Source: Pseudomonas lutea
GTDB taxonomy: Bacteria; Pseudomonadota; Gammaproteobacteria; Pseudomonadales; Pseudomonadaceae
DNA: 64,000 nucleotides
Direction of reading: 5' to 3'
NCBI RefSeq assembly: GCF_000759445.1
Contig: NZ_JRMB01000001.1
Coordinates: forward strand, 868,001 to 932,000
The first letter of the stretch is position 1. Every line of letters starts with the position of its first letter. Shown in pieces: positions 53,340 to 64,000 of this stretch. A program made the translations under genes and the position numbers. The notes under the pieces were generated by a model. It searched no databases and was not told where the DNA came from. It worked only from the letters and a program-made list of their open reading frames with translations.

Positions 53340-54830
53340 GGAGACCGGCTTCAGCCGGGAAGAGGACTATTTGTGGGACCGGCTTCAGCCGGGAAGATCA
53401 CTATTTGTGGGACCGGCTTTAGCCGGGAAGGGGACTTCATGCACACCGTCAATTTCGCGGAGTCAATAATGCCGTCTTCCCGGCTAAAGCCGGTCCCACA
53501 ATGGATCACTGCGGCGGATGTACCGGCCCCTTCGCGGGCAAGCGCGCTCCTACACCGGGTCTGCGCCGCCGTCGGCGCCAACGCATGGGTTGCAGGCCGC
53601 CGGGTTCGCCAGCAAGCCGGCTCTTACAGTGATCATGTCCGCCGGGCGCAATCGGTATCGGGCCAGGCCCGCATCAAGTAAACAGGTTGGCCGGGCAACA
53701 CCGACCAAGCCAAGCCAAGACCACCTGTAGGAGCGCGCTTGCCCGCGAATGACGTCGGGTCAGGCAGACACGCGTCGCGACGGCAACTCGACGTAATGCG
53801 TGGTGCGAAACGGGGCTTTGGTGGGACCGGCTTCAGCCGGGAAGAGGACCTTATGCACACCGTCAATTTCGCGGAGTCAATAATGCCGTCTTCCCGGCTG
53901 AACCCGGTCCCAAAATGGATCACTGCGGCGGATGTACCGGCCCCTTCGCGGGCAAGCGCGCTCCTACACCGGGTCTGCGCCGCCGTCGGCGCCAACGCAT
54001 GGATTGCAGGCCGCCGGGTTCGCCAGCAAGCCGGCTCCTACAGTGATCATGTCCGCCGGGCGCAATCAGTATCGGGCCAGGCCCGCATAAAGTACACAGG
54101 TTGGCCGGGCAACACCGACCTCAAGCCAAGCCAAGACCACCTGTAGGAGCGCGCTTGCCCGCGAATGACGTCGGGTCAGGCAGACACGCGTCGCGACGAC
54201 AATTCGACGTAATGCGTGGTGCGAAACGGGGCTTTGGTGGGACCGGCTTTAGCCGGGAAGAGGACCTTGTGCACACCGTCAATTTCGCGGAGTCAATAAT
54301 GCCGTCTTCCCGGCTAAAGCCGGTCCCACAGTGGAACGCTGCGCCGAATGTACCGGCCCCTTCGCGGGCAAGCGCGCTCCTACACCGGGTCCGCGCCGCC
54401 GTCGGCGCCAACGCATGGGTTGCAGGCCGCCGGGTTCGCCAGCAAGCCGGCTCCTACAGTGATCATGTCCGCCGGGCGCAATCGGTATCGGGCCAGGCCC
54501 GCATCAAGGAAACAGGTTGGCCGGGCAACACCGACCTCAAGCCAAGCCAAGACCAACTGTAGGAGCGCGCTTGCCCGCGAATGACGTCGGGTCAGGCAGA
54601 CACGCGTCGCGACGACAACTCGACGTAATGCGTGGTGCGAAACGGGGCTTTGGTGGGACCGGCTTTAGCCGGGAAGGGGACTTTATGCACACCGTCAATT
54701 TCGCGGAGTGAATGATGCCGTCTTCCCGGCTAAGGCCGGTCCCACAGTGGAACAGTGCGGCGGATGTACCGGCCCCTTCGCGGGCAAGCGCGCTCCTGCA
54801 CCGGGTCCGCGCAGTACCCACCTCGGCGGC
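53340..54830. repeat. 416-bp composite REP repeats
   Basis: Composite unit anchored by GTGGGACCGGCTTTAGCCGG at 53407, 53821, 54237 and 54653 (periods 414, 416, 416). Each full unit combines three REP classes: GGGACCGGCTTTAGCC, GCGGGCAAGCGCGCTCC and CGCCAGCAAGCCGGCTCC. Extra single REP copies precede at 53341 and 53373. No real gene between 53293 and 54957; the rest, up to 54950, has low-complexity CGGCGGCA-type sequence. Confidence 0.92.
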
Positions 54831-54957: not shown

Positions 54958-55587
54958 TTAGCTCAAATCGTGCAGCTCGCGCTTCAGAGCAGGGCCCAGG
55001 GCCCACTTTGAAAAGCGCACCTGCAACCCCTGGCGCTGTGGCGTGCAGCAAAAAGGGCCGACCTCATAAACGTCCGCTTCGGGGAACGGGGCGAGCCGAA
55101 GCAAGGGCCACTTCACGCCATCGGTGGAGTACTGCAGGCGCAGGACGCCATCAGCGGCGGTGACCCTGAGCCAAAAATCACGCGGATCACCGTTAAACGA
55201 GCCCGGCGCCCAGTCGGACCGGCCCTCGGTGAGCACGCTGCTGATCATCGGGTCGCCGTCGTTGAACTCGATGCCGGCCTTGATCCACGTCCGTTCATCC
55301 AGCCTGACCATGAGCCCGGCCTGATCGTAAAGCTCGCGAAAGTCGGCATTGATCCTGACCTGCGCAGTGAAGCCACCGGCTGCCTTGACGCCGAAGAAGT
55401 GCCCGCTATCGCGCACAAAACCGTAGTGGGTTTCGCGCCAGAAATCGGTCTGCAGCCTGGTGGTGACCTCAAGCGATCCGTCCGGGTGCGCGACCCAGTG
55501 ATCAGGTTGATTCAGCCAGGTGAATGCGTCCCAGATGGACGCCCCGACCTGCTGAAGGGGCGGATGGCCTTGCGATTCTGCTACCAC
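54958..55587 (-). CDS. DUF1349-domain protein
   Basis: 209-aa protein with the concanavalin-like DUF1349 beta-sandwich (DFWRETHYGFVRDSGHFF, YDQAGLMVRLDERTWIKAGIEF in pieces, VGPFCCTPQR). GTG 55587 follows GGGAGA; the open frame to 55704 overlaps the regulatory repeat at 55680. DUF1349 proteins are thought to bind or act on carbohydrates, unproven here. It shares its upstream region with the type III-linked 154-aa gene. Confidence 0.85.
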   Translation of the reverse strand: MVAESQGHPPLQQVGASIWDAFTWLNQPDHWVAHPDGSLEVTTRLQTDFWRETHYGFVRDSGHFFGVKAAGGFTAQVRINADFRELYDQAGLMVRLDERTWIKAGIEFNDGDPMISSVLTEGRSDWAPGSFNGDPRDFWLRVTAADGVLRLQYSTDGVKWPLLRLAPFPEADVYEVGPFCCTPQRQGLQVRFSKWALGPALKRELHDLS

Positions 55588-55679
55588 GGTAGTCTCCCTG
55601 GCTGATGGGCCTTCATTGACGTGATTGGACGTCTGGCAACGTCGTCCCGTTCCAACCGTCGCAGGCGTTATTAGCGCTC

Positions 55680-55695
55680 TGTGAAACGTTGTGAA
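55680..55695. promoter_or_regulatory. Direct repeat TGTGAA-N4-TGTGAA
   Basis: First of three such sites in the type III region; spacer ACGT. It lies 90 bases upstream of the 154-aa gene start (and a similar distance before the DUF1349 gene), as expected of a response-regulator or AraC-type binding site. Confidence 0.6.
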
Positions 55696-55785
55696 GCGCC
55701 TCATAAATAACCTGTCGGCGTGCTAGCGTTTTGCCCGGAGCTTCGTCAGCGGGACGATGCCCACCTCACTGACGGAGCAGCGCCG

Positions 55786-56250
55786 ATGTCTACCCCCATA
55801 ACCCCTGCTGGAGGCTCACCAAGCAACCCGAAGTCATCGACTTCCGCGTTCGACGCCAAGCTGGACATTGCCCGGTCCAGCAAAATCGTCGCCGATTACA
55901 TGCGCCAGACCGGCAAGTCCGCCATCACCCTGCAGGAACTTGCCAAGGTCGCTGACAACACATCAGGCAAGGTGCCGGCCGAAGTGTCTGATGCAGCGAA
56001 GTACCTGCAGCGCCACCCTGACGTCTTCACCTCCATCGAAACCCACGACGTGGCGGGCGTCGACAACCTGTCCGGCGTATGGAATTTCGACTGGGCGGCC
56101 AACGGCGGGCTGAAAGGCACGGCGACCGAAGCGATTGCCAGGATGCAGGACACCTTCGATCTGGCGATTGCCAAGTCGGCGCAGATCACTGAGATCACTA
56201 CCGGCAAAAAGGCTGAACTGGACTCGACCAAGCAGCGGCCGAGTAACTGA
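55786..56250 (+). CDS. 154-aa type III-linked protein: EF-hand-like module plus needle/pilin-like tail
   Basis: No signal peptide. Residues 1-25 are Ser/Pro-rich; 25-105 include AAKYLQRHPDVFTSIETHDV and DNLSGVWNFDWAANGGL, similar in pattern to the DxxSxxDxxxWL segment in the 997-aa neighbour. The last 31 residues (FDLAIAKSAQITEITTGKK, then ELDSTKQRPSN) match the end of the 54-aa protein at 63439 nearly residue for residue. The ATG at 55786 is chosen over the longer frame. A type III substrate, possibly a needle- or tip-related component, is inferred. Confidence 0.72.
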   Translation: MSTPITPAGGSPSNPKSSTSAFDAKLDIARSSKIVADYMRQTGKSAITLQELAKVADNTSGKVPAEVSDAAKYLQRHPDVFTSIETHDVAGVDNLSGVWNFDWAANGGLKGTATEAIARMQDTFDLAIAKSAQITEITTGKKAELDSTKQRPSN

Positions 56251-56277
56251 CTTCCAGCAAGCGCTGGTGGACGAGGC

Positions 56278-56311
56278 ATAAAAAAAACCGGGCATTGGCC
56301 CGGGTTTTTCG
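56278..56311. terminator. Bidirectional intrinsic terminator
   Basis: AAAAAACCGGGC-ATT-GGCCCGGGTTTTT stem flanked by A and T runs, between the convergent 154-aa and 997-aa genes; serves both. Confidence 0.88.
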
Positions 56312-56328
56312 TGACGCAATGCCTGATC

Positions 56329-59322
56329 TTATGACGTCCAGGTCTCGCCGCCCGGCCAATCCTTGGTCGGGATGTCGCTGATGGTGCCGTCTTTTACCCC
56401 GTCAATCCCGTAGCGCTCGATCGAATCACCCAACACCTGGGCGAAGTCATCGGCCTTGGCCTGCTGCTGACCTTCTTTGACCAGCCCCGGGATGATCGCC
56501 CCCAGCACCGCAACCCCAGCGCCGAGGAAACCCAGCACGCCCGCCGCCGACGCGACCGCCGGCATGAAGCGGGTGATGCCCAGCAGCGCCATGCTGCCCT
56601 CGACCGCCGAGGCCGAGCCTGCGAGCACGCCCAGCGACCCGGCCGTGATGTTGAAGCCGCCGGTCAGCGCGTCGCCGCGACGGATCGCCTGAACGCCGTC
56701 GAAGATGCTGTACGCACCCGCCGCAATGCCCGCCAGGCCACCGATGCCTTTGGCGCTCTCCTCGAAGTTCTTCGCCACCGCCTTGTAGTTCTTGCCGTCC
56801 TTGACGTTTTCCTTGGCCTTGTCCAGCAGGTCACTGGGCAGCTTGCCGTCTTGCATGTCCTTGATGGTTTTCTCGCCGTTGGCGATGGCCCCGTCCAGGT
56901 ATTGCTGATACGCCTTTGACCCGCCTTCGATGAGTACCGTGGCGGTTTGCACGGAGCCGGTGGTGATGTCGACGACGTTTTTGGTGGAGAGCTTGCCGCC
57001 GTTCTGCGTCCCACGCGCGATGGTCACACCGGCCAGGAACAGTCCGCTCACAACATGCAGGGTGCCGCTGCTGTAGGCGCCTTTGGCATCACCGTTGGTG
57101 TCGAAATCCGAGAGCTTGTCCATTTTGTCCAGGGCTTTGGTGCCCTGGCGGAGCATGTCCCAGTTGCCACGGAAGCCGGCCACCACTTGGTCGGTGGTCG
57201 CAACGGTGCCGTCTTTGTTCATCATCAATTCAGGAGAGTCGCGTCGCACCTGATCAATGCGCTCGCGCAGCTTGTCTTCGTCCAGATCCGCGCCGCCGTC
57301 TTTGCCGTAAGCGGCTTTGAGGTCGTCGAAGGTCGCGCCGGTGAACGCGTTTTCCTGGACGATGCTGGAGAAGTTGTCGTTGAGCTGTTTGTCGAATTGA
57401 TTAGTGAACTCCGGGTCCAGCGCGCCGTTGTACAGCGCCACTTCCAGGCTGAATGTGGCCCCGGCGGCGTCAGGCGTCTGGGTCTTCAGCAGTTCACGCA
57501 GCCGCTCGCCCGAGGCCAGCGAATCCTTGTAATACGTCTTGAAGTCCTCGTTGTGGGAAGATTTGCCCACCGCAGCCTGTATCTCGGCGTTGTCGTCGAT
57601 GCCCAGCATCGACTGGTAGCTGTTGGCGGTGGCGTAGAAACTGGCCAACGCTTCTGGCTGATTGGTCTTGCCGTCTTTGGTCGCGGCGTCCCAGGCCTGG
57701 TCGAGCGCCTTGCCGGATTTGATCTCGTCCTCGTAGGTCTTGGTCACCGCATCCTTGAGGCCGGGACTTGCCTCGAACAGCGACTTGACCGACTCGTCAC
57801 CCTTGGTCTTGATGAACTCGGCCGTTGGCGCATCCTTCTGCAGAATGGCGATGTGGTCGTTGATGTCCTGCAACACCTTGTCCGGCTCCCAGAACGCGCC
57901 GGACCCGTTGGCAATCGCCACCTTGCCGTAGTCATCGCCCCACATGCCGGCCTTGGCGCCGTCGACCACCAGCTTCTGCGCGCTCTGAAGATCCAGCAGC
58001 ACAGCGGCCTTTTCCTCGGCGGTGTAGTTTTCGGGGTGCTCGAAGACGTCTTTGCCCAGTTTGCTGGTGTCGACGTTGTGCGTCACGTTGCCCGACACCA
58101 CGCTCGACACCAGCGCGCTGAGGCCGGTGGCGTCGGCCGGTGCCGAGTTCTTCAGCCAGGTCTGAATGTCGGACTTGCTGGCCTTGCCATCGGCGCCACC
58201 GGCCAGCAGCTTGCTGGAGGTGTCGAGTATCTTGAAAGCCCCCGGCTGCGACCAGAAGTCCAGCGCGGCTTTTTCCTTGTCCGAAAGCTGAGGGTTGGCG
58301 TCTTTGTAGTCTTTGATGTTCTGCGCGGTGAGGGTGTCGCCGGCATCGGTCTTGCCGCGGATGGAGTCGTACTTTTGCTCAAGGATCGCCGCGTAACCGG
58401 CCACTTCTTTTGAACCGGCGTCGGCATCGGGCTTGGCCTTGAGAAATTCCTTGTAGCTGGCGATGTCTTCGCTGGCCTGAGCCTTGGGCAGCGACTCGAA
58501 GCCGTATTTGCCAAAGTCCTGCAAGCGCCCGGCTTCGGTGCCGTGCCTGGCTTCGCCGCTCTTGGTGAAGCCATCGACGCTGGTGTTGGCCACGTCCTTG
58601 CCGCTCAGTACTTTGCCATTTTCGTCGTAGCCAACTACCCGGTCCATGACCTGAGCCGCGCGGAAGGCAGCGTTCGGGTCGGTCTCGAAGTCCCCGACGC
58701 GTTCCTTCAATGCGTCTTTGACGCCGCTCTGGTTGCCCAGATGCTTGAGCAGCGGGTTGGCGTCGATGATGTCCTGAGCCGAGCGCTTGTCATCCTTGGG
58801 CAGTTCCCAGACGATGCCGGCGCTTTCACCTGCCTCGCGGGCCTTGGCGTCGCCACCGACGTTATTGGCGCTTTCCATCTTGCCCTTGAGGCTGTCGAAA
58901 CCGTCCTTGCCGAAGTCCTGCAGGCGACCGGCCTCGGTGCCGTGTTTGGCCTGGCCACTTTTGGTGAAGCCATTGATGCGGTTGTCATCGACATCAGTGC
59001 CGGCCAGGCGCTGGCCGTTTTCGTCGTAGCGCACCACGTGGTCGAGCACCTGTTCGGCACGGAAGGCGGCGTCCGGGTCGTTCTCGAAGTCGCCAACGCG
59101 TTCCCTGAGCATGTCCTTGACGCCACTCTGGTTGCCGAGGTTTTTCAGCAGCGGGTTGTCATCGATGATCTGCTGCGCCGAGCGGTTATCGTCTTCGGGC
59201 AGTTCCCATTCGATACCGGCGTCTTTGGCTTTCGCACGGTCGACGGAATTGTCCCAGGTGGCCTGGCCTTTGCCGGCGACCTCGGTGACGACCCGGGTTA
59301 TATCGAGTGACGGGATAGACAT
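56329..59322 (-). CDS. NolX/HrpF-like type III secretion translocator candidate
   Basis: 997-aa protein lacking a Sec signal, with a Ser/Thr-poor but flexible N-terminus. Residues 36-145 and 169-277 are a tandem duplication (DNPLLKNLGNQSGVKD, then GTEAGRLQDFGK in both), period 133 residues, the hallmark of Xanthomonas HrpF and rhizobial NolX. An EF-hand-like ADGKASKSDIQTWL lies near 375-390. Hydrophobic segments near 760-780 and 880-960 (AGVLGFLGAGVAVLGAIIPGL) could insert into a host membrane. HrpF/NolX form the translocon of Hrp-type secretion systems; this role is inferred. GGAGCC precedes the ATG. Confidence 0.78.
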   Translation of the reverse strand: MSIPSLDITRVVTEVAGKGQATWDNSVDRAKAKDAGIEWELPEDDNRSAQQIIDDNPLLKNLGNQSGVKDMLRERVGDFENDPDAAFRAEQVLDHVVRYDENGQRLAGTDVDDNRINGFTKSGQAKHGTEAGRLQDFGKDGFDSLKGKMESANNVGGDAKAREAGESAGIVWELPKDDKRSAQDIIDANPLLKHLGNQSGVKDALKERVGDFETDPNAAFRAAQVMDRVVGYDENGKVLSGKDVANTSVDGFTKSGEARHGTEAGRLQDFGKYGFESLPKAQASEDIASYKEFLKAKPDADAGSKEVAGYAAILEQKYDSIRGKTDAGDTLTAQNIKDYKDANPQLSDKEKAALDFWSQPGAFKILDTSSKLLAGGADGKASKSDIQTWLKNSAPADATGLSALVSSVVSGNVTHNVDTSKLGKDVFEHPENYTAEEKAAVLLDLQSAQKLVVDGAKAGMWGDDYGKVAIANGSGAFWEPDKVLQDINDHIAILQKDAPTAEFIKTKGDESVKSLFEASPGLKDAVTKTYEDEIKSGKALDQAWDAATKDGKTNQPEALASFYATANSYQSMLGIDDNAEIQAAVGKSSHNEDFKTYYKDSLASGERLRELLKTQTPDAAGATFSLEVALYNGALDPEFTNQFDKQLNDNFSSIVQENAFTGATFDDLKAAYGKDGGADLDEDKLRERIDQVRRDSPELMMNKDGTVATTDQVVAGFRGNWDMLRQGTKALDKMDKLSDFDTNGDAKGAYSSGTLHVVSGLFLAGVTIARGTQNGGKLSTKNVVDITTGSVQTATVLIEGGSKAYQQYLDGAIANGEKTIKDMQDGKLPSDLLDKAKENVKDGKNYKAVAKNFEESAKGIGGLAGIAAGAYSIFDGVQAIRRGDALTGGFNITAGSLGVLAGSASAVEGSMALLGITRFMPAVASAAGVLGFLGAGVAVLGAIIPGLVKEGQQQAKADDFAQVLGDSIERYGIDGVKDGTISDIPTKDWPGGETWTS

Positions 59323-59427
59323 GGCAGGCTCCTGAAGTGGGTGTTCACTAGTACGTTGTCCATTACGGGTGTGGGCCGTCGAGAGCAGGGTCGCGCAACA
59401 GTCCGCGGCGCTGCTCTCAACGCTGTG

Positions 59428-62400
59428 CTAACGCTTGTCTTCGCCGTATTCGACGTGCAGCTCGTCATCCAGCCGGTTGCTGGACGAGCCGTCGTGTTGC
59501 GGTGTTTCGTCGAAGTGCTGCCACTCCGCGCTCTGGAAGCGAAACAGGCTGTCGTCCGGCGGGGCTTCGCGTTCGCCGTATTCGTGGAGCGAGTAGTGCA
59601 GGTACTCGACCTTGTCGCCCCAGTCGCCCTGAAGCAGGCCGTCAGCGGCCAGGTCGCGGTACCAGTCGTTTTCCTTCTCGCTGGCTTTCTGTTTCTTGTT
59701 GTGGTCCACGAAGAACCCGATGACCCCGCCGATCACCGCCAGGACCACGCCGACCAGGAAGAAAGGCCCCGTCAATGCCGCTGCCGAACCTGCTCCCACC
59801 AACGCCGCCGCGCCGAGCACGCCGGCCGATGCCCCGAAGGCGCCGGCGGCGATCTGCAGCCCGCCAGCGGCCTTGGCCAGCGGGTCACCGGATTCAATGC
59901 CGCTTTTGATGGTGAAGGCGCCCAGCACGATGTCGGCGAACCCGCCCACCACGTCGCTGGCCGGGCCGAGCACTTTGATCACCGAACCGGCGATCTTGCC
60001 CGCCTTGCCGGCGCCCAGCTTGGCACCGCCGGCGCCGGTGACAGCGTCATCGAGACGCTGGGTGATGCCGCCCTGGACTTTCTCCGCATCGGCGAAGGTG
60101 CCCGCGCCGTCGCCCAGCACCGACGAAATGTCGGGCGTGATGTCCAGCGCGCTGCTGATTTTGGTTTTCATCGCGTCGGAAAGCTTGGGATCGCGAACGT
60201 CGACCATGGTCGGGGCTTTGTCATTGCCCCAGATTTCCGGAAGCGTCTTGTCGAGCCCGAGGAAGTCGACCATGCCGCCTTTGCCGACCAGGTCGGCAAT
60301 CGCGTCGCCGAGCTTGACGAAGTGGCTGCCCGCGCCCGCGAAGCTGAGGAAGTCCTTGGCGATTGCCAGCCGTTGCAACGGCGTTTCGGCCAGCTTGCCG
60401 CCGTTGCCGGCAAGCTGGTAAATGCCCGAGAACAGTGAGACGCCGGCCCCCATCGAGCCGAGTACGCCTTTGTTGTTCAGCGCATTGAAGACCTCGCCCA
60501 GCTGACCGCGATCAGCGATCGCCACATAGGGCTTGGAGAGCGCAGTTTTGATGTCCGCCTCGGAAATGCTGCCATGGGTTTTGTAGGCTTCGCCCAGCTC
60601 TGCCAGCGCTTTGCTCACCGCAGAGGATTTCTTCTTGTCGCCCAGTCCTTCTTCAAGAAACTTCTCGATGGTTTCCTGGGTGCGGCGGGGCAGGTCAAGC
60701 AACTCGCCCTTGAGCACGCTTTTCAGCAGACCGAAGAGGTCCTTGGTGGCCAGCTCCTTGTTCTCGTCGGAGACCTTGCCCGGGTCGCTGATCAGGTCGT
60801 TGAGGTCGCTGGTCAAGCCGTCGGCCTGGATGTTCTGTGCGGCTTTGGTTGCGGCGTCCGGGTCGAACAGCGACAGCGCGGTCAACGTGTCGCTCAGGTC
60901 CTGTTGCGCCTCATGGGCCTTGCCTTGTTTCTGCAGGTCCTTGAGGTAGGTTACGTAGTCCGGGTTGGCGGTCAGGTCGAGAAGCTTTTGTTTGACCGCG
61001 TCCTTGTTCGGGATGCGATTGATCGCACCGTCCATGCTGGCCTTGTAATCCGCAGTGACGCCGGGATCGGAGAACAGGGCGCTGATCCGCTCCTGCAGCT
61101 TGGGGCCGTCGATGATGTCGTGCATGTCGGCGGACGAGAGCTGGGTCTGGTGGTCGTCAAAGACTCGCCAGGTGCCGCCGAAGAAGCCGGGATCTTCTTC
61201 ATAGCCGGTCAGGCCGCGGCCGTTCTGATAGGCCGCTTGCGCTTCCAGCGCGCGCACCAGCTGAGCGCGGGGGTCGTCCTTGCCGATAGAACCGTCCTGC
61301 ACGCCCTTGCGGTACTTGTCGAGCAGCTCCTGGGTGGCCAGTTCGCTGACGGTCAGCTCGGGAGACTGGTCATCCTTGGGATCGGCCTTGACGCCGGTAC
61401 CGAGGTTGAGCACGTCCAGCTCGGCTTCGGGAGGCAGGTTGGCCTTGGCGCGGGTGTCGTCGACACCGGTCTTGGTCCAGGCATCCCACTTGGCGACGAC
61501 GTCGTCATACAGCTGCGGGCTCAGCGCCTTTGAAACGATGACCTTGCCTTCGCTGGTTTCGTAGCGGATCAAGCCGTTGCCCAGGTCGTCCGGCGAGCCG
61601 AAGGTCATGTCGACGTTTTTCAGAAAGTCGTTGGGGCCGGCCAGCTTGTAGCCTTCGGCCTCGCTGGTGTGGATCTGGCTCCAGGTCTCGTTGGCGGTGC
61701 TGGCGCTTTTGAACAACTCGGGGGTGAGGTCTTTGGAGACCACTACGCGGCTACCGTCTTGCAGTTCGTAAGTGAGGGTTTCGCCCTCCTGGCCGACGGT
61801 CCAGTAGAAGTTTTTGTAATCGTTGAGCGCTGGCGCCTGAGTGCCTTGATCGGCAAGGGTGGCACCGCCGGAAACGGCGGTGTTGATGTCGCCGGACTTG
61901 GCCGGATCGTTGATGACCTCATGCAGCGACTTCAGGTAATCGAACAACTTGGGATTGTCATCGCGTGCGACGATGACCTTGCTGCCCCCGTTGTCGTAGC
62001 GAATCAGGCCCGGACCCACTTCGTCGGCGGGCCCCACGGCGGTGCCGGCGTAGGGCGGCCAGACTTCGTTGTCGGTGGCGCGACGGTAGCCGACATGTTC
62101 GCTGGCGTTGACCGCGCTCAACGTCTTGTAAGCCTCGGACACTTGCTTGAACGCCTCCGGATTGTTCTGTTCGGCGAGGATCACGTGCTTGCCGTCCTGG
62201 GTCACATACCGAATCAGGCCCGGACCCTCCTGATCGGGCGGGCCGATAAAGCGGTAACTGCCCAGCGTGTCCGGCACCGCCGTGTCTGCCGTCCCCAGCT
62301 CGTAACCTTCGGCGAGGCTTTTGTTGATGCCCTGCAATGCCGCGCGGTCTTCGACGACCTGCTTGTACAGCGTCGGGTTGGTGGACTTGCTGACTATCAC

Positions 62401-62631
62401 TTGCTGGCCGTCCTGGGTGACGAAGCGGACGGTGTCGGCGGCGAGGGTGCCGGGCTCCTCGATGGTTTTGTAGTCCTTGAGCGCAGGCGCCTTTTCATCG
62501 GCGGTCGCAGGTCGATACTGATCGGCCAGCCTGGCGCTGGTCTTCAGAACAGCGGCGAACAGGTTTTTCGGCACGGTGGCGAGCGGCCGCGATTTCAGCT
62601 CGGGGGTGCTATCCAAAGGGCGTGTCGGCAT
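59428..62631 (-). CDS. Large HrpF/HrpK-like type III secreted protein with five N-terminal repeats
   Basis: 1067-aa protein. Residues about 35-400 hold five divergent copies of a 65-80-aa module with the core GPGLIRYxxxDGKxVIVSxxxNPxLF (written as separate pieces: PDQEGPGLIRY, PDDLGNGLIRY, DGQQVIVSKS). The C-terminal third carries TPLQRLAIAKDFLSF and SHFVKLGDAIADL, a pattern I associate with HrpK/HrpF translocators, and hydrophobic segments ending ALTGPFFLVGVVLAVIGGV. ATG 62631 has GCAGGAG upstream; the ATG at 62667 has none. Adjacent to and co-directional with the NolX-like gene (105-bp gap), so probably one unit. Function inferred. Confidence 0.72.
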   Translation of the reverse strand: MPTRPLDSTPELKSRPLATVPKNLFAAVLKTSARLADQYRPATADEKAPALKDYKTIEEPGTLAADTVRFVTQDGQQVIVSKSTNPTLYKQVVEDRAALQGINKSLAEGYELGTADTAVPDTLGSYRFIGPPDQEGPGLIRYVTQDGKHVILAEQNNPEAFKQVSEAYKTLSAVNASEHVGYRRATDNEVWPPYAGTAVGPADEVGPGLIRYDNGGSKVIVARDDNPKLFDYLKSLHEVINDPAKSGDINTAVSGGATLADQGTQAPALNDYKNFYWTVGQEGETLTYELQDGSRVVVSKDLTPELFKSASTANETWSQIHTSEAEGYKLAGPNDFLKNVDMTFGSPDDLGNGLIRYETSEGKVIVSKALSPQLYDDVVAKWDAWTKTGVDDTRAKANLPPEAELDVLNLGTGVKADPKDDQSPELTVSELATQELLDKYRKGVQDGSIGKDDPRAQLVRALEAQAAYQNGRGLTGYEEDPGFFGGTWRVFDDHQTQLSSADMHDIIDGPKLQERISALFSDPGVTADYKASMDGAINRIPNKDAVKQKLLDLTANPDYVTYLKDLQKQGKAHEAQQDLSDTLTALSLFDPDAATKAAQNIQADGLTSDLNDLISDPGKVSDENKELATKDLFGLLKSVLKGELLDLPRRTQETIEKFLEEGLGDKKKSSAVSKALAELGEAYKTHGSISEADIKTALSKPYVAIADRGQLGEVFNALNNKGVLGSMGAGVSLFSGIYQLAGNGGKLAETPLQRLAIAKDFLSFAGAGSHFVKLGDAIADLVGKGGMVDFLGLDKTLPEIWGNDKAPTMVDVRDPKLSDAMKTKISSALDITPDISSVLGDGAGTFADAEKVQGGITQRLDDAVTGAGGAKLGAGKAGKIAGSVIKVLGPASDVVGGFADIVLGAFTIKSGIESGDPLAKAAGGLQIAAGAFGASAGVLGAAALVGAGSAAALTGPFFLVGVVLAVIGGVIGFFVDHNKKQKASEKENDWYRDLAADGLLQGDWGDKVEYLHYSLHEYGEREAPPDDSLFRFQSAEWQHFDETPQHDGSSSNRLDDELHVEYGEDKR

Positions 62632-63018
62632 GCGATTGAACTCCTGCTTTTTATCGGTAGGGCACAACTAAGAGGCGGGGCACAGCGCCAGGCTGTTCAC
62701 TGGCACGTCGCGCCGGCATCTATCAAAAACTGGATAAACAGTGTGCGTTGAAGTGTGAGCGGCACAGCGGTTAATTATCGGCACTCCGATATGACGTGAC
62801 GATGAAGTCCGGGCAACGAGCCGACCATACATGGATATACGCGACGATTCAGCGCAACGTTCAACCGGCAAATATGAAGGGCCCCGGAACAATGGACTGA
62901 CTTCAAAACAGTTCAGGCGTTGAGTGCGTTATGGTTGCGCATGAATTCGCAGGTGGGCTCACAACAAGGCTGAAACCCTAGCAGAGTGCTCCGGAAATCG
63001 GCGCGTGCTGCCGGCTTT

Positions 63019-63034
63019 TTCACAACAATTCACA
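63019..63034. promoter_or_regulatory. Direct repeat TTCACA-N4-TTCACA
   Basis: Second site; spacer ACAA. Lies about 390 bases upstream of the 1067-aa gene and 400 upstream of the 54-aa gene. Confidence 0.55.
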
Positions 63035-63271
63035 GCGGGAGCCCATTGCGTCAGGGCTGGCGGGCCGGTCTACATGAGCACCATGGCCAACATTGTATTC
63101 GCCACAAATATGGCGCCACTCCTTTGACTGAATAACTTCATTCTAACTAACGGGGGAAAGCAGAGTTTCATCAGATTCGATCAATAACAACGGTCTCGGC
63201 CTTTGTTTACAGATACAGGCAATATGACATTGCGGCGCAATAAAGTAGCGCAGTGAATCGAATCCCGGTAT

Positions 63272-63287
63272 TTCACAAGTTTTCACA
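63272..63287. promoter_or_regulatory. Direct repeat TTCACA-N4-TTCACA
   Basis: Third site; spacer AGTT, with extended TTTCACAA in both halves. It is 150 bases upstream of the 54-aa gene start, a fitting distance for activation of the secretion operon. Confidence 0.6.
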
Positions 63288-63438
63288 ACAACTAAAAAAT
63301 GCCCCCGCCTAATATTGATTGGTGCAACGCAAGTGCTGAAGTTTATTTGTAACAATTCGGCTTTATGGTGAGGCACGCACTAAGCAAGCGCCGCAATGCG
63401 GCTGAAGACATTCCCCCATCCCTGTAAGGAGATACACA

Positions 63439-63603
63439 ATGAGTGAAGTCCCTCCAGCAAGCTCCGGCGGCGGCGCAGATGCAGCGATCGCAAAAATGGA
63501 AGCCACGTTCAACATGGCTATCGAGAAGTCGGCAAAGATCACTGAGCTGACCACGGCCAAGAAAGCCGAGCTCGACGCGACCAAACAACGGCCTCAGAAC
63601 TGA
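63439..63603 (+). CDS. 54-aa needle/pilin-like protein of the type III locus
   Basis: Very small helical protein, no signal peptide: a Gly/Ser-rich start (VPPASSGGGADAAI) and an amphipathic helix, MEATFNMAIEKSAKITEL, then TTAKKAELDATKQRPQN. TAAGGAG sits 8 bases before the ATG. Position directly upstream of an SctD-type gene, and a size and single-helix design like needle/Hrp-pilin subunits (HrpA, NopA), suggest the extracellular filament subunit. It lacks the classic YscF motifs, so this is inference. The C-terminus is duplicated in the 154-aa protein at 55786. Confidence 0.72.
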   Translation: MSEVPPASSGGGADAAIAKMEATFNMAIEKSAKITELTTAKKAELDATKQRPQN

Positions 63604-63716
63604 CGCCGTGATGCGAGCAGCCGCCCGGCTGCTCGCATTCCATCTGCCTCATTGAGCTACACCTTTTCGGCGTCCGACTCGCCTCTTGCCTGCGCACTCG
63701 ACCCGGGTAACACGGT

Positions 63717-64000
63717 ATGACCGCCCAGATTTCCCTGACATCGCTGCCTGATCCGTCGGCACGCGTCACACCCATTCCACTGCTGAGCATCACCCACGGC
63801 CTGCACCGAGGGGTAAGCCTGGCGCTTGAAAACCCTGTTTATACGGTTGGCAGCGCTGGCGATGTTGATTTGCTCCTCAGCGACCCCGGCATTGCCGCGC
63901 GGCATCTGGCGTTGCGCTTCGCAGCAGGTCAGGTGGCTGTCGAAGCGCTTTGCGGCGACGTCATCGTCGTCGCGCGCCACGGTCAGGAGATACGCATTCC
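63717..64000 (+). CDS. SctD/YscD/HrpQ-like type III inner-membrane ring protein (N-terminal FHA domain), truncated by window edge
   Basis: First 94 residues visible. PLLSITHGLHRGVSLALEN, YTVGSAGDVDLLLSDPGI and AARHLALRF form the FHA-like cytoplasmic domain typical of SctD. The rest would hold a transmembrane helix and periplasmic ring-building domains. It marks the beginning of the secretion-apparatus operon extending right of the window. A free-standing FHA protein (for example type VI) is the main alternative. Confidence 0.75.
   Translation, partial: MTAQISLTSLPDPSARVTPIPLLSITHGLHRGVSLALENPVYTVGSAGDVDLLLSDPGIAARHLALRFAAGQVAVEALCGDVIVVARHGQEIRI

Follow-up and report, generated by a model that had tools for sequence, protein, structure and literature searches.

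The right end of the analyzed window, a stretch of 64,000 nucleotides that corresponds to bases 868001-932000 of contig 1 of the 5.64-Mb Pseudomonas lutea genome, is the left edge of a complete non-flagellar type III secretion system (T3SS) with a split secretin. Judged by the SctV tree, gene order and gene content, this system belongs to Rhc subgroup II, also termed T3SS-2, and is an already-known machine. Its outline is known, and what our analysis adds are a needle candidate, a hybrid tip candidate, a near-constant second translocator candidate and an operator candidate. As a tentative model, which may prove correct in its main lines, we propose a complete Rhc-II T3SS in which a 54-aa protein would form the needle, a 154-aa protein would serve as tip adaptor, HrpK and a 1067-aa protein would provide the pore, and a box recognized by the adjacent regulator would act as the switch; we infer these roles for all four proteins and for the box alike.

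The gene order from base 63439 of the window onwards comprises the 54-aa gene, sctD, a 119-aa SctX-like ORF, the gene of a SctY-like TPR chaperone and sctV, followed by the C-terminal secretin half, a 165-aa ORF, a reversed TPR-like ORF (read by eye on the minus strand between the secretin halves) and the N-terminal secretin half. Thereafter come a 72-aa ORF, a 156-aa SctI-like ORF, sctJ, a K-like ORF, sctL, sctN and an O-like ORF, and finally sctQ, R, S, T and U and, in reverse orientation, a regulator gene whose length is 958-1071 codons according to the start chosen. The SctX-, SctI-, K- and O-like ORFs were labeled by position alone, the 119-aa ORF for its place before sctY, comparable to the order VscX-VscY-SctV in Photobacterium. 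SctV, J, Q, R, S and T scored over the curated NCBIfam cut-offs, and the matches of SctD, SctY (69.3 bits versus a cut-off of 70), SctC, SctL, SctN and SctU were under them, the SctC1 and SctC2 halves matching positions 2-136 and 233-462 of TIGR02516 below its whole-protein cut-off. The window itself holds the 5' end of sctD (63717..64000, plus strand), which encodes an FHA/YscD-type protein of 318 aa and from which the apparatus continues past the window to sctU and the reversed regulator gene. An FHA-type SctD start had already been recognized in the sequence-only reading, and its assignment held, as the partial ORF matched PF16697 (3e-11) and the whole protein TIGR02500 (6e-17; 61.6 bits, below the 86-bit cut-off). 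A type VI origin of this FHA gene was ruled out, as sctV and the remaining type III genes come next; the type III core genes anticipated beyond base 64000 are thus present immediately to the right. In a search of the whole genome with the SctV profile, two places matched, namely sctV at 933424 with 767.7 bits, above the cut-off, and a second one at 1963841 with a lower score (586 bits) that was taken as FlhA. The locus is hence the sole non-flagellar T3SS of this genome that this search revealed. The C-terminal secretin half (L005:4115-5958) also carries a PF13629 (T2SS-T3SS_pil_N) domain and the 165-aa ORF that follows it has a weak CpaD match (E 0.0075), which together suggest a Tad-like outer-membrane part. 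Just left of the T3SS locus lies a tandem array (window 53407-54812) with a unit of 416 bp in 3.4 copies at 95% match that contains GGGACCGGCTTTAGCCGGGAAG-type palindromes, and Rfam and tRNA scans of the window gave no matches.

The assignment to subgroup II was examined in a maximum likelihood tree of 26 SctV rows, which carried long-branch warnings for FlhA, Hrp1 and one Ysc row. A Pseudomonas clade of 10 rows that includes P. cerasi T3SS-2 received a support of 100/100, and a clade of 17 rows (98/99) united Pseudomonas with Halomonas, Rhizobium, Phyllobacterium and Brucella endophytica rows and with pNGR234b of NGR234; because the tree contained no Rhc-III reference (R. etli CFN42 type), this 17-row clade may mix Rhc-II and Rhc-III. 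Its sister group was Rhc-I (100/100), the two being joined at 97/99. The phylogeny, which had been suggested as a check on the system's class, therefore groups it with P. cerasi T3SS-2 and outside Rhc-I, and together with the gene set it bears out the earlier view of a rhizobial-like T3SS that is not of the Hrp1 type. All Rhc-II traits considered were found, namely the SctV phylogeny, the split secretin with an opposite-facing TPR gene, the hrpK-like gene and the PhoB/AAA/TPR regulator. The split secretin with a reversed TPR gene between its halves, the two small ORFs before sctV, hrpK, the PhoB-like/AAA/TPR regulator and the position in the SctV clade are shared with the Rhc-II systems that include P. 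syringae T3SS-2 and NGR234 T3SS-II (Gazi 2012, PMC3574062, excerpts). The same excerpts state that strains of the P. syringae complex carry T3SS-2 (PMC3574062). The suggestion that the system is distinct from those of P. syringae had to be abandoned, as P. cerasi SctV falls into the same clade and the contrast fails because P. syringae strains have T3SS-2 as a second system. In Table 1 of PMC3574062 the entries for SctF and SctI are blank for subgroup II, and its excerpts report no hrp boxes for this subgroup. To the Rhc-II systems as described there, we propose to add the 54-aa candidate and the 154-aa hybrid as well as candidates for a second translocator and an operator.

The distribution of these parts was analyzed in a genus sample of 298 Pseudomonas genomes, 28 with an Rhc-II SctD (at least 125 bits, the next match having 47 bits) and 270 without, scoring being limited in each genome to the best candidates of an initial pass. 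The 54-aa, 154-aa and 1079-aa proteins co-occurred with this SctD at a Fisher p < 1e-25, kinship being ignored. The 54-aa protein (63439..63603, plus strand) consists of a Gly/Ser/Ala-rich start and one helix, its family comprises 62 database clusters, and its position before sctD, its size and its conservation make it a candidate for the needle or pilus subunit of the Rhc-II T3SS. Its gene was found in 27 of the 28 genomes, always just upstream of sctD, and in the remaining one (G249) sctD is interrupted by a stop; the 270 other genomes yielded one weak 25-residue match (G095, E 4.5e-5) and in no case the full tail. Each apparatus is accompanied by one short copy of this type, which is highly conserved. 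A profile of the 154-aa family matched the 54-aa gene of the same genome with E = 5.8e-16, and the 54-aa and 154-aa genes are 72% identical in DNA over 122 bases. The two proteins had been described from the letters of the window as sharing a needle-like tail; the sharing of the tail is confirmed by these values, whereas the label needle-like found no backing in SctF similarity.

The proposed needle-tip adaptor, the 154-aa protein ('TIP'; 55786..56250, plus strand, also listed as 176 aa from an earlier GTG), combines a disordered N-terminus and a compact helical module of about 80 residues with a long helix at the C-terminus that shares homology with the 54-aa protein, the latter being copied in the last approximately 44 residues. 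Its AlphaFold model is fairly confident (mean pLDDT 83) and comprises about 24 disordered residues, then five short helices and two short strands, and finally a 36-residue helix that represents the part common to the 54-aa protein (in a numbering that is shifted by one additional leading residue, module at about 29-106 and helix at 114-149). The arrangement recalls an EF-hand pair, with fold matches that were weak, non-significant and mixed with other folds, and a PDB sequence search with the protein gave a best E of 1.1. The family comprises 131 database clusters, and a Pfam domain was present in 0 of the 120 listed. A homology of the module with HrpK or NolX was considered and rejected: the protein reached 15.1-15.6 bits with PF05819, below the cut-off of 26.1, matches to this domain occurred in five of 48 relatives (best 5.8e-4) and remained below threshold, and hhalign comparisons with a 4-row HrpK alignment, the 1079 family and 33 HrpK ORFs were not significant. 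As the register is readable and lacks significance, such a homology is not claimed. No protein joining a needle-like tail to another module was found in the Rhc-I loci examined.

The full-length 154-aa protein was present in 21 of the 28 T3SS-2 genomes and in none of the 270 others, and the seven T3SS-2 genomes without it include members of the P. syringae complex. Searches of plasmids of NGR234, R. johnstonii and P. zundukense did not find it either, and because of these absences it is not universally needed. Among 25 further genomes or records that were chosen via HrpK or T3SS loci, and of which at least two repeat the genus sample (G314 and G316 coincide in their coordinates with G022 and G212), the 154-aa protein was found in 11 and the 54-aa type in 18, all 11 having both. 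The 154-aa gene can be separated from the T3SS by millions of bases; in P. lutea it is convergent with hrpK, and in P. tehranensis, P. karstica, Ochrobactrum and Mesorhizobium RMAD-H1 (L018, L022, L030, L032) it is directly upstream of hrpK. In an all-against-all comparison, the unlinked 154-aa genes showed no neighbor common to all 11 loci, and common flanks occurred within small groups of related genomes. The identity of the protein to its relatives exceeded that of SctD in seven of seven comparisons (three with a partial SctD) and that of SctV in four of eight, a degree of conservation that would suit a structural part.

These features bear on a different interpretation, which we regard as rather unlikely, namely that the 154-aa protein is an effector or an early secreted regulator and that the shared tail is a recognition element for the export gate or a chaperone instead of a polymerization helix. 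Like effector genes, the 154-aa gene often stands alone and far from the cluster, and its product is missing from some T3SS-2 genomes. However, it forms a single family with a conservation above that of SctD and comparable to that of SctV, its gene is found beside hrpK in several lineages, and the part common to the 54-aa protein is C-terminal and hence unlike usual export signals, which are normally N-terminal.

The assignment of the 54-aa protein as a candidate for the Rhc-II needle derives from its position and a marginal resemblance to NopA. The Rhc-I gene order is nopA-rhcD-rhcV in the excerpts of PMC3973906, and in our data nopA is directly upstream of sctD and ahead of sctV in loci L040 and L044, where SctD was matched, and was placed there by position alone in L085 and L086. 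The 54-aa gene holds this nopA position, directly upstream of sctD, and its small helical product in this respect resembles the NopA-NopB-NopX pilus system of Rhc-I (PMC3973906, excerpts). NopA measures 68-77 aa in the four rows used, and its similarity to the 54-aa protein is marginal (hhalign probability 3.5%, a score reached by column-shuffled controls in 0 of 60 and 1 of 40 cases). The 54-aa protein had no Pfam or NCBIfam match at E<=1, no match to the SctF needle (YscF/EscF) profile and a best E of 0.45 in a PDB sequence search with its profile, and against two EscF rows it scored no better than shuffles in hhalign (22 of 40 reached its score). Because of the missing SctF match and the marginal NopA likeness, we call it a needle or pilus candidate and not a member of SctF; against a needle role, moreover, its single helix is short for a T3SS needle. 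A 127-aa ORF beside hrpK in Phyllobacterium zundukense (L008:23396-23779, minus strand) has a KQRP-type stretch that by eye is like the end of the 54-aa protein, as well as a C-terminal hydrophobic segment, and is possibly another hybrid.

The place of the needle could alternatively be taken by a conserved 72-aa protein whose gene lies between sctC1 and the SctI-like gene (L005:7634-7852, genome 939033-939251; acidic C-terminus, no Pfam or NCBIfam match), the 54-aa/154-aa pair then being, for example, an SctD/SctC anchor or a needle chaperone. Its position just before the SctI-like gene and sctJ is the one that the needle gene occupies in other T3SS, and it was found by search in Pseudomonas, Rhizobium and Halomonas, a Phyllobacterium row having been added by hand. 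We nevertheless consider this explanation improbable, as the 72-aa protein was not similar to the two EscF needles in profile comparisons (its score was reached by 38 of 40 shuffles), has an acidic tail, and leaves the position of nopA to the 54-aa gene.

Both putative translocators are encoded on the minus strand and sctD on the plus strand, in agreement with the earlier observation that the large translocator-like proteins are divergent from the apparatus. The 997-aa protein (56329..59322) has two N-terminal repeats, a PF16937 (T3SS_HrpK1) match at residues 262-454 with 93.5 bits versus a cut-off of 30.9, and a hydrophobic segment at 911-951, and is 40-56% identical to three rhizobial HrpK proteins. 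It had been taken for a NolX/HrpF-like protein, an identity that was ruled out when the profile comparison proposed at that time gave no PF05819 match at E<=1 and the strong PF16937 match pointed to HrpK instead. It resembles the HrpK1/HrpF translocators (PF16937) in passing the Pfam cut-off and in its C-terminal hydrophobic segment, and differs from them by its additional N-terminal repeats. In one Pseudomonas genome (G119), two HrpK-family ORFs of about 1770-1780 aa were found at separate sites (L080, L095), each just downstream of a box of the type described below. The second translocator candidate is a HrpK-like protein (59428..62631) of 1067 aa from an ATG at 62631, the length of a 99%-identical database copy (P0121); the reading 59428-62667 gives 1079 aa from a TTG. 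Its five N-terminal repeats, noted before, are indeed present (21-38% pairwise identity), each being modeled as strands followed by a helix, and they precede a helical body and a hydrophobic stretch of 59 residues (933-991 in the 1079-aa numbering) that is of low confidence in the structure model. Unlike the HrpK1/HrpF translocators, this partner remained below every Pfam cut-off and had no PF16937 match at E<=1, and a fold search with its model was uninformative (best E 0.3). Its hydrophobic region near the C-terminus is similar to that of HrpK, with an hhalign probability of 93% across 127 columns, and a database search in which 7996 candidates were scored returned 147 clusters, with a Pfam HrpK1 domain in 1 of the 120 listed. 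In the genus sample it was strong in 26 of the 28 T3SS-2 genomes, weak in one more (G035) and absent from the 270 others, and thus a steadier companion of T3SS-2 than full-length HrpK. In some genomes, additional proteins matched the HrpK as well as the 1079 profile.

Comparison of the regions upstream of 54-aa genes and unlinked 154-aa genes revealed one shared element, a direct repeat, TTCACA-N4-TTCACA, which is reverse-complemented upstream of the 154-aa gene. The 5.64-Mb genome contains three exact matches, all in the T3SS locus: box 1, TTCACAACGTTTCACA (55680..55695, minus strand), 90 bp upstream of the 154-aa gene and followed after 25 bp by the -10-like element TGCTAGCGT (55721..55729, plus strand); box 2, TTCACAACAATTCACA (63019..63034, plus strand), in the divergent promoter region 388 bp upstream of the 1067-aa gene; and box 3, TTCACAAGTTTTCACA (63272..63287, plus strand), 151 bp upstream of the 54-aa gene and followed after 22 bp by the -10-like element TAATAT (63310..63315, plus strand). 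With one mismatch allowed, four more sites occurred elsewhere in the genome versus three for a reversed control pattern, and in the window alone three matches with up to two mismatches compared with a shuffle mean of 3.2, which is no excess; the weight of the box accordingly lies in the exactness of its matches and the whole-genome count and not in window enrichment. When a DUF1349 gene (window 54958-55704, minus strand) is read at its longest, box 1 also overlaps its initial codons; the true start of this gene may be further in because the Pfam match begins at residue 63, and box 1 might serve both directions.

Within the genus sample, at least one exact box was found in 26 of the 28 T3SS-2 genomes versus 99 of the 270 others (p 5e-9), with 66 sites in the former and 114 in the latter. 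In these 26 genomes, 57 of the 66 sites are upstream of 54-aa, 154-aa, HrpK-type or 1079-type genes, counting two that fall inside the longest gene reading and for which the start codon is unsure (G192:C1:1358115, G044:C24:13716) and one located 666 bp before a 54-aa gene (G037:C35:99671). The other nine lie away from such genes (G037:C49:132917, G192:C1:320136, G212:C179:1314, G022:C67:156715, G022:C67:260877, G155:C14:139392, G155:C31:1600, G035:C487:48088 and G056:C457:1637), those of G192 and G212 being at the start of a HAD-type gene. Because the promoters of 54-aa and 154-aa genes were the source of the motif, sites there are not independent; independent support comes from the whole-genome specificity and from sites before isolated HrpK- or 1079-type genes (L073, L076-L082, L095), and two such genes in G197 (L083, L084) had no exact site nearby. 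Of 18 regions upstream of 54-aa genes, 10 (9 genomes) had the repeat exactly 22 bp before a TA(G/A)TAT element. For 154-aa genes, 14 upstream regions carried a box and five further ones had none; in 12 of these 14 (11 of 13 genomes), a TGNTA-type element came 24-27 bp after the repeat. L010 and L064, which represent one genome, were both included. In P. tehranensis, P. karstica and Ochrobactrum, neither the 54-aa nor the 154-aa gene has a box upstream; R. johnstonii and NGR234 lack it before the 54-aa gene, Halomonas and Mesorhizobium lack it before the 154-aa gene, and in G001 and G164 the 54-aa gene is preceded only by a degenerate copy. That we are dealing with an ordinary Rhc-II T3SS whose short genes are lineage-specific accessories without a special role and whose boxes belong to a general regulator is very improbable, since the near-perfect co-occurrence of the short genes with T3SS-2 and the concentration of its box sites at the four gene types outweigh what would favor it, namely that the machine itself is already described (PMC3574062) and that genomes without the system hold about 0.4 exact boxes each.

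A 10-bp period, as in the box, fits a winged helix of the PhoB/OmpR type. The regulator encoded beside sctU has a Trans_reg_C domain (PF00486) in an architecture of PhoB-like winged helix, STAND ATPase and TPR, and relatives of it were found in 11 other loci, several as cut ends only. A PhoB-like regulator has been predicted for the P. syringae T3SS-2 counterpart (PMC3574062, excerpts), and we infer that the adjacent regulator binds the box as a putative operator.

According to the model favored here, the 54-aa protein would polymerize as an extracellular needle or pilus in the role of NopA, and the 154-aa protein would insert its tail helix into the end of this filament with its module facing outward as a tip adaptor. 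This module would then dock HrpK and/or the 1067-aa protein, which would form the pore. The adjacent regulator, by binding the direct repeats with their 10-bp period, would turn on the needle and apparatus, tip and translocator genes jointly, even where these are megabases apart. Needle tips in the T3SS of animal pathogens are formed by proteins of the LcrV/SipD class, with which the 154-aa protein would share its position between needle and translocator. No sequence or fold relation to this class was seen, and the tip would here hold a needle-type helix of its own and thus a covalent tie to the needle lattice. More speculatively, and with less confidence than the model as a whole, the Rhc-II tip could be a hybrid of needle helix and translocator-docking module unknown elsewhere, in effect a covalently modified last needle subunit, whose gene roams the genome and is kept in step by the operator.

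An earlier description of the 54-aa protein, the 154-aa protein, the 1079-type companion or the TTCACA box was not found in the open-access literature searched. Excerpts of PMC3973906 describe the Rhc-II and Rhc-III systems of S. meliloti, S. saheli and S. terangae as being without the known appendage genes NopA, NopB and NopC and without ttsI. The needle, tip and regulation of Rhc-II/III systems are left open in the excerpts of PMC3574062 and PMC3973906, and candidates for them can now be named. In summary, our analysis does not describe a new secretion system and instead offers, for a system present in 28 of 298 sampled Pseudomonas genomes, a two-gene needle and tip candidate, a second translocator candidate and a putative 16-bp operator, which together may provide a testable answer to what forms the needle, the tip and the switch of Rhc-II systems.
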